DNA from: Ktedonobacteria bacterium
GTDB taxonomy: Bacteria; Chloroflexota; Ktedonobacteria; Ktedonobacterales; JACDGC01
DNA: 32,506 nt
Reading direction: 5' to 3'
Assembly: GCA_027459705.1 (NCBI GenBank)
Contig: DAIDHM010000234.1
Span: forward strand, 1 to 32,506
Every line of letters begins with the position of its first letter. Position 1 is the stretch's first letter. A model generated the notes under the pieces. That model saw only the letters and a list, made by a program, of their open reading frames with translations. It did no database searches and had not been told where the DNA came from. The translations under genes and the position numbers were made by a program. This document shows, piece after piece, positions 2,946 to 30,530 of this stretch.

Positions 2946-3746
2946 ATGAACATCTTCGCCCGTGAACTGGTCGGAGTCCTGGCCAGCCATCACAAAGAAC
3001 TGAGCGATCTCTTCAAATATCGCAACGTCGATCCGCCGCGCAACATCCCGCCCAACACCGTGCTGCGGCTCAAAGCCTCGCTCGATGGCGCGAACTCGGC
3101 CACCCTGAACGTCGACCAGATCGAGTTGCTGACGGAGGAATTCGGCTTCGACGACGCCGATCTGGACCGGCTGCACGCCGCGCTGGTCGCCGAGGCGATT
3201 CGCACGCTGATCGCCGATCGCCTGGAGGCGACATTGGCGGAGCAGTTGGGCGAGCTGACGCTGACCCTGCTGCTGGAGGAGGATCCCGCCAGAGTGAAGG
3301 CGGCGAGCGAGTCATTGCTTGCCTCCGTGCGGGGTCTGCCCGATGAAGCCGCGGGGGAGCGCGTCTTGCGCGGCCTGCCGCCCATCACCGGGGAGCGCGG
3401 GACGGTCAGCGCGGCGGACGCCGCCCTCTTCGCCGCGCCCGACCCTCTGGCGGACGCGGCGGCGCTGCTGGTGGGAGCGGCGGACGCGCCCCCCTTCCGG
3501 CTGGACGTGCTGACGGCGCTCAGCGGCGCGCTGGACGCGTATGAGCTGGGCGTCCTCTGGCTGGCGATGGCGCAACGGGCGAGCGCGGCGGCGCGTGGCG
3601 GGCAGGCGGCCCAGGCGCGGGCGTACCTGGAGCGCGCGGCGCGGCTGGCACGGACCTGCCCGGAACGCGCGGACGGAACCTCCGAGCAGGCGGAGCTGCT
3701 GGAGGAAATTGCCCGCGCGCTCGTCGATGCCGCCGCCATCGGCTGA
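2946..3746 (+). CDS. Protein with N-terminal module shared with the 29996 gene; CHAT-linked
   Basis: The product is 266 residues. The ATG at 2946 is chosen because ACAGGAGG lies just upstream and because the start then matches that of the related protein at 29996. Residues 1-105 align colinearly with that protein: FAxEL near the start, RLK followed by ATL, then RL-AA exactly 20 residues after ATL. The remainder is Ala/Leu/Glu-rich and helical, with a TPR-like segment near the end (QAARAYLERAARLARTC type). A short inverted repeat (2886-2910) lies in the leader. It is third in the CHAT gene set. The module may be a protein-interaction domain linking effector and sensor proteins, as in effector-associated domains of conflict systems; that is inference. 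No catalytic motif is visible. Confidence 0.72.
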   Translation: MNIFARELVGVLASHHKELSDLFKYRNVDPPRNIPPNTVLRLKASLDGANSATLNVDQIELLTEEFGFDDADLDRLHAALVAEAIRTLIADRLEATLAEQLGELTLTLLLEEDPARVKAASESLLASVRGLPDEAAGERVLRGLPPITGERGTVSAADAALFAAPDPLADAAALLVGAADAPPFRLDVLTALSGALDAYELGVLWLAMAQRASAAARGGQAAQARAYLERAARLARTCPERADGTSEQAELLEEIARALVDAAAIG

Positions 3747-29863: not shown

Positions 29864-29911
29864 GCATTTATTAAGACTTCAACCTCATTGAGAAAAAAGT
29901 ATCATAGACCC

Positions 29912-29940
29912 TGGCACAATTATTGCGCGTATGTTATAGT
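29912..29940 (+). promoter_or_regulatory. Promoter of the stand-alone module gene
   Basis: TGGCAC (29912-29917), 17 bases, TATAGT (29935-29940) with TGT before it (extended -10). It lies about 56 bp before the start of the gene at 29996. Confidence 0.5.
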
Positions 29941-29995: not shown

Positions 29996-30454
29996 ATGGG
30001 TTTCTTTGCCGGGGAATTGGCCGCCATATTAAGTGCTCATCAAAGTCACCCACAGGGTTCACCCTGGGCGATTTTGACGCGCATGGGCGTGCATCCCCAA
30101 CAGATTGATCGCTTGAAGAAAGCGAACGAAGATATCGGACAGATCGCGACGTTGCCGCAACCTTATCTGTCCCAATTGCGCGCAGAGCTTGATCTGACCA
30201 GCCCTGAATGGGCGAGGCTCCAGGCGGCAATTGAGGCCGATGTGTTTTTTAGACTCTTGCTATACCATAACTACTCGCTTGAAGAGGCCGCAAATCGTGC
30301 GAACGCAGTTTTTGCGAATGTGTTAAAGGACCAACTCGCCGCGAGTGGAAAGCAAGAAAGCGTCTACGTTCCAGACGAAGAGGTTGGCAGTACCGAACCT
30401 TTCTTACATCCACGGCGAACTCGTGGAAAAAAGCTGGAAGATATCGGATCCTAG
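29996..30454 (+). CDS. Stand-alone protein carrying the CHAT-linked N-terminal module
   Basis: The product is 152 residues. Residues 1-105 align colinearly with the N-terminus of the protein at 2946-3746: both start with a short Met-x-x-Phe-Ala-x-Glu-Leu motif, have RLK followed eight or nine residues later by ATL, and RL-AA exactly 20 residues after that. Beyond residue 110 the two differ; this one ends with a polar, basic tail. It carries no enzyme domain. As a lone adaptor module it could interact with the related protein of the CHAT cassette; this is inference. It has its own promoter (29912-29940) and a terminator after its stop. Confidence 0.75.
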   Translation: MGFFAGELAAILSAHQSHPQGSPWAILTRMGVHPQQIDRLKKANEDIGQIATLPQPYLSQLRAELDLTSPEWARLQAAIEADVFFRLLLYHNYSLEEAANRANAVFANVLKDQLAASGKQESVYVPDEEVGSTEPFLHPRRTRGKKLEDIGS

Positions 30455-30493
30455 CATAAATCTCAGCACCTGTGCTTTGATTCATGTGTCACT

Positions 30494-30530
30494 CCGTAGT
30501 CGATGTAATCGACTACGGAAATTTTTTCTT
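30494..30530 (+). terminator. Intrinsic terminator before the DinB-like gene
   Basis: CCGTAGTCGAT-GTA-ATCGACTACGG (11-base perfect arms) followed by AAATTTTTTC. It terminates the module gene. The DinB-like coding region begins only 20 bp after the T-run, leaving no room for a separate promoter downstream of the hairpin. Confidence 0.92.

Follow-up and report, generated by a model that had tools for sequence, protein, structure and literature searches.

In the 32,506-nucleotide stretch of Ktedonobacteria DNA analysed here (the window), the proteins encoded at positions 2946–3746 and 29996–30454, both on the forward strand, share an N-terminal module that is probably a divergent helix-turn-helix (HTH) domain of the XRE/Cro-C1 type. 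On the same reading, which we regard as probable as a whole, the copies linked to effectors are local regulators of the neighbouring death-effector gene, and 29996–30454 is their stand-alone paralogue.

Both open reading frames were confirmed, with lengths of 266 amino acids (2946–3746) and 152 amino acids (29996–30454), and the two N-termini are colinear over approximately 110 residues, which bears out the roughly 105-residue shared module that a sequence-only reading of this DNA had claimed. The motifs named in that reading occur at nearly equal spacing in the alignment of 2946–3746 with 29996–30454: FAREL and FAGEL, both at residues 4–8; RLK at 41 and 39; ATL at 52 and 51; and RLHAA at 75 and RLQAA at 74, the offset of one or two residues being attributable to a small indel. 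BLASTP found no match between the two proteins (E = 51), and the global alignment of their N-termini gave z = 7.1, with none of 2000 shuffles scoring as high. Alignments were made of the 10 stand-alone copies, of the CHAT-linked copy with three close relatives, and of all 21 effector-type copies. A profile search had been suggested as a check, and with non-circular profiles each window protein was recovered from the clade of the other. The profile of the 29996 clade alone found 2946 at E = 1e-4, that of the 2946 clade alone found 29996 at E = 1.2e-6, and that of all effector-type copies found 29996 at E = 1.1e-12; the matches at E ≤ 10 among 1726 ORFs were module proteins. HHalign comparisons between the clades gave E values of 1e-9 and 1e-13 and, together with the shuffles and the non-circular profiles, rule out a chance similarity.

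The structures predicted with AlphaFold2 did not differ in fold, both window proteins showing the same six helices, at residues 3–14, 19–25, 36–47, 56–66, 70–90, and 95–110 of 2946–3746 and at residues 3–14, 25–29, 34–45, 55–65, 69–90, and 95–114 of 29996–30454. The model of 2946–3746 was built from an alignment that excluded the stand-alone clade, and the module of 29996–30454 was modelled with a pLDDT of 95. The 29996–30454 protein has two approximately 60%-identical stand-alone paralogues in the genome of the window (contigs C87 and C186). Both window proteins, one of them only weakly, also matched a bridging copy that adjoins a caspase gene on contig C15 of the same genome. These other copies explain the relationship of a pair that is invisible to BLASTP.

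The module, which was not recognised in the sequence-only reading, has no name in Pfam. No module member reached the Pfam cut-off, neither window module protein was named by Pfam or PADLOC, a search of NCBIfam with the effector-linked alignment returned no significant family, and a PDB sequence search returned only chance-level helical matches. The distant matches outside the order were proteins with XRE-type domains (Pfam HTH_31) in genomes G189 (531 aa) and G268 (157 aa). When the module family was compared by HHalign with 13 XRE domains (12 from the genome of the window and one from G268), the match had a probability of 94% (E = 9e-8, score 42) and was colinear over 70 columns, whereas none of 200 column-shuffled controls scored above 15 and the reversed profile scored 11. 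The third helix of the module aligned with the XRE recognition helix and reads HPxKVxRLQxSL in the caspase/CHAT subgroup and HPQQIxRL in the stand-alone clade. A Foldseek search with the two models gave no significant match to a solved structure, of the XRE type or any other; we counted this against the XRE reading and therefore term the module "XRE-like".

Relatives were gathered from 60 other genomes besides that of the window, and the module was nearly confined to the Ktedonobacterales (23 of 47 genomes). A scan of genome contigs with the stand-alone clade returned seven loci. A supposed module at locus L084 looked like a false positive caused by an ABC ATPase and was left out. Most of the genomes are fragmented, so that some neighbourhoods end at contig ends. 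The copies fell into an effector-linked branch and a separate, family-specific stand-alone clade that holds 29996–30454 (support 100/100).

The effector-linked protein of the window (2946–3746) comprises the XRE-like module (residues 1–110; 2946–3275, from the alignment and the model), with its third helix at residues 36–47 (3051–3086) in the model, followed by a disordered linker and a C-terminal helical domain. On the same strand lies a TPR-CHAT protease gene (1–2463), whose 5′ end is cut by the contig end and which contains candidate catalytic His (SHG) and Cys (SGC) residues. Between these two genes, also on the forward strand, positions 2505–2864 encode a 119-amino-acid protein with one C-terminal hydrophobic segment. 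Small proteins with such a segment also occur in the CHAT–module cassettes of the two closest CHAT loci (L070, 2572–2925; L071, 5321–5797), and they form a conserved third member of the cassette that is possibly a protease substrate or a membrane effector.

A death effector of the CHAT, caspase, TIR-STAND, or EAD8-trypsin type was the neighbour of 16 of the 21 effector-type copies, so that the connection to conflict systems drawn in the sequence-only reading applies strongly to one branch. Nine copies accompany CHAT proteins or a TPR part at a contig end (the window, L070, L071, L077, L081, L082, L083, L085, and L089), three lie directly upstream of caspases (L010, L073, and L076), three lie directly upstream of TIR-AAA/NB-ARC-TPR proteins (L074, L078, and L086), and one adjoins an EAD8-trypsin gene and has a STAND NTPase some way beyond (L075). 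The other five lacked such a neighbour or were at contig ends. The caspase-linked paralogue in the genome of the window (L010, 6607–8564, on C15) sits directly upstream of a Peptidase_C14 gene. Because each genome has only 0–8 CHAT genes, the linkage of module and effector is not due to chance. In the reverse test, no module was found beside the CHAT genes of further contigs, so that the linkage is one-directional, holding when one starts from the module but not when one starts from the effector.

All of the module copies are separate genes, and none is fused to an effector or NTPase domain. This bears on the proposal that the module is a homotypic adaptor, as EADs and bacterial Death-like domains are, in which modules bind each other and join effector and sensor, and 29996–30454 is a trans partner or decoy. 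Those domains are likewise small, non-enzymatic, and mostly helical, occur in multiple copies per genome, and, in multicellular-type bacteria, lie close to caspase, trypsin, CHAT, and TIR effectors (PMC7159879, PMC8195603), and the module copies, one of them beside the EAD8-trypsin gene, match this description. However, EADs are defined by their fusions, of one copy with a core component and of further copies with effector or signalling domains (PMC7159879), an arrangement not found among the module copies. Furthermore, the module has no significant match to an EAD Pfam family, it is XRE-like, a subgroup of its effector-linked copies sits on a palindrome at the promoters, and genome G003 contains the stand-alone clade and no further copy. 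An adaptor role is therefore unlikely.

The palindrome, ASTCACA-N4-TGTGAST, lies in the promoters of the caspase/CHAT-linked subgroup. When up to one mismatch was allowed, its 10-position core was located upstream of 8 of 22 effector-type genes, compared with 1.6% of random windows taken from these loci; because the motif was first noticed by eye in six promoters, testing it on the same six is partly circular. In the 600 bp preceding the modules, seven sites were found in all; the reversed pattern gave none, and permuted palindromes averaged 0.013 (maximum 4). The whole-genome scans are a more independent test than these promoter counts. In the 4.6-Mb genome of the window, TCACANNNNTGTGAST or TCACA-N4-TGTGAST occurs at a single site (C15:30510), ahead of the paralogue–caspase operon and about 80–100 bp upstream of its presumed ATG. 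G025 and G006 each have just one TCACANNNNTGTGAST site, which falls at the module promoter, and the two sites in G008 likewise belong to the module locus. The longer pattern occurs three times in G002, never more than about 1 kb from the module gene. The last of these G002 sites (L076, 7807, on contig C424) is operator-like and precedes a GAF-PAS histidine kinase gene, whose product is a possible sensor for the caspase operon. The totals of one-mismatch sites per genome resemble those of the reversed control, indicating that the signal lies in position.

The module and CHAT units of G034 are on two contigs, each of which keeps a near-identical 29-bp operator region. Comparison with G025 suggests that the two contigs, if joined as it implies, represent one rearranged locus whose two promoters keep the site. 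An assembly artefact was considered and rejected, because the contigs share only 29 bp and the comparison with G025 fits one rearranged locus.

The palindrome was limited to one subgroup, and some sites have no module next door, as would be expected if it were bound by another, unlinked regulator and the module proteins had a different role. On C15 of G018, a TIR-caspase operon carries two operator-like sites (L179, 6187 and 8310), and no module gene lies in the 15 kb around it, which may fit regulation in trans. Exact operator matches precede DUF347/FtsX-type permease and ABC genes in G026 (L181, 6465) and G016 (L182, 6080), two genomes of one genus. Nevertheless, what the caspase/CHAT loci of three families of the order have in common is an adjacent module gene, the module itself is XRE-like, and the palindrome goes with a single type of recognition helix, so that an unlinked regulator appears quite improbable. 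For the effector-linked proteins, local control of the transcription of death effectors is the most likely role.

In the mechanism that we favour, the module would bind DNA as an XRE/Cro-C1-type HTH domain with one extra C-terminal helix. Effector-linked proteins such as 2946–3746, in which a helical domain follows the module, would act as local transcription regulators, most likely dimeric repressors, of the adjoining death-effector gene, and members of the subgroup with a third helix resembling HPxKVxRLQxSL would bind ASTCACA-N4-TGTGAST in the promoter. The 29996–30454 protein, composed of the module and a basic tail, would most likely also be a DNA-binding regulator, one that does not act on the CHAT system.

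The module shares with the XRE/Cro-C1 regulators (Pfam HTH_31, HTH_3, and HTH_26) an order of five helices that fits the lambda-repressor-like fold, the position of the recognition helix, the 70-column colinear profile match, and, in one subgroup, a palindromic site near its own promoter. It differs from them in its sub-cut-off Pfam scores, its long fifth helix, its extra sixth helix and C-terminal helical domain, and its lack of a PDB fold match. DdrO is an XRE-type repressor. It works with a peptidase, PprI, in a stress-response switch, as the proposed regulators may do, but PprI, which cleaves it, is a metallopeptidase, whereas the neighbours of the module are caspase, CHAT, trypsin, or TIR proteins (PMC10904395). 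BrxR/CapW, CapH, RptR, and CapS are also encoded by small DNA-binding genes next to immune or death effectors and apparently act on the adjacent promoter, but these defence-operon repressors belong to different sequence families, BrxR/CapW being WYL, RptR four-helix, and CapS STAS-like proteins (PMC12255303, PMC13373217). Such adjacency to a defence or death operon characterises the effector-type copies (the 16 of 21 noted above) and not the 29996 clade. None of the papers searched described the module family or its operator.

These precedents invite a variant in which the module protein keeps the effector gene repressed and is itself cut by the neighbouring protease (caspase or CHAT), creating positive feedback, as in PprI–DdrO or CapP–CapH (PMC10904395, PMC12255303). 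An XRE-like protein beside proteases and the disordered linker of 2946–3746 (residues 133–181) are consistent with cleavage, but the TIR-linked copies have no protease partner and the precedents use metallopeptidases, and we consider this variant unlikely.

The preferred reading of 29996–30454, as a stand-alone paralogue, draws on its clade. This 152-amino-acid protein, recognised from its ORF and family membership, contains the XRE-like HTH module plus the sixth helix (residues 1–114; 29996–30337), as supported by the AlphaFold2 model and the XRE profile match, and a third helix, HPQQIDRLKKANE (residues 33–45; 30092–30130), which the alignment and model identify as the putative recognition helix. 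The stand-alone clade lacks the C-terminal helical domain, and 8 of its 10 members have a basic tail of the RRRGR type, represented in the window protein by the AT-hook-like patch RRTRGKK (30413–30433). The sequence-only reading had stated that the gene stands alone with its own promoter. A promoter-like site, CTGGCA-18-TATAGT with TG before the second hexamer (29911–29940, forward strand), was seen, although such sites are no commoner than in shuffled sequence, and there is a strong terminator-like stem-loop followed by a T run (30493–30519, forward strand), so that it is plausible that the gene stands alone.

Each of the six genomes searched from its family contained the 29996 clade. In the window, the gene comes after those for a sigma-70 factor and a small hydrophobic protein, and its relatives adjoin acyl-CoA dehydrogenase, RsgA, Cys/Met metabolism, or uncharacterised genes; none of the clade was found beside a recognised death effector. 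The proximity to an acyl-CoA dehydrogenase gene, seen at five loci (L012, L093, L094, L095, and L096), is kept across genera. The occurrence of the clade without any other copy in G003 implies that a 29996-type protein needs no module partner, and with these housekeeping neighbours, the evidence does not point to the proposed role as trans partner or decoy in the CHAT system. Several observations were counted against the favoured mechanism: the module of 29996–30454 has an acidic character overall, with a near-neutral third helix, a search for operators in the 29996 and 2946 clades found none, and neither window gene carries the palindrome. The promoters of the stand-alone clade showed neither the TCACA operator nor a common palindrome of their own. 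On balance, 29996–30454 is most likely a stand-alone DNA-binding paralogue.

A broader picture, which we put forward only as a long shot, is that XRE-derived regulators specific to the Ktedonobacterales place unrelated death effectors (CHAT, caspase, and TIR-STAND) under related switches with one operator, that the adjacent protease cleaves its own repressor, and that the stand-alone clade supplies genome-wide members. If true, this would amount to an all-or-none, caspase-driven death circuit controlled at the level of transcription.

The organism of the window is a soil bacterium, and the domain common to its two genes looks like a DNA-binding switch; related copies beside self-killing protease and TIR genes probably control those genes. 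A helical module does not become an adaptor simply by being small and lying next to a death protease. Little is known about what keeps caspase, CHAT, and TIR effectors silent in bacteria. The analysis contributes an unnamed family of proposed regulators and a defined 18-bp operator, and the near-unique position of the operator in several genomes makes this regulation directly testable.
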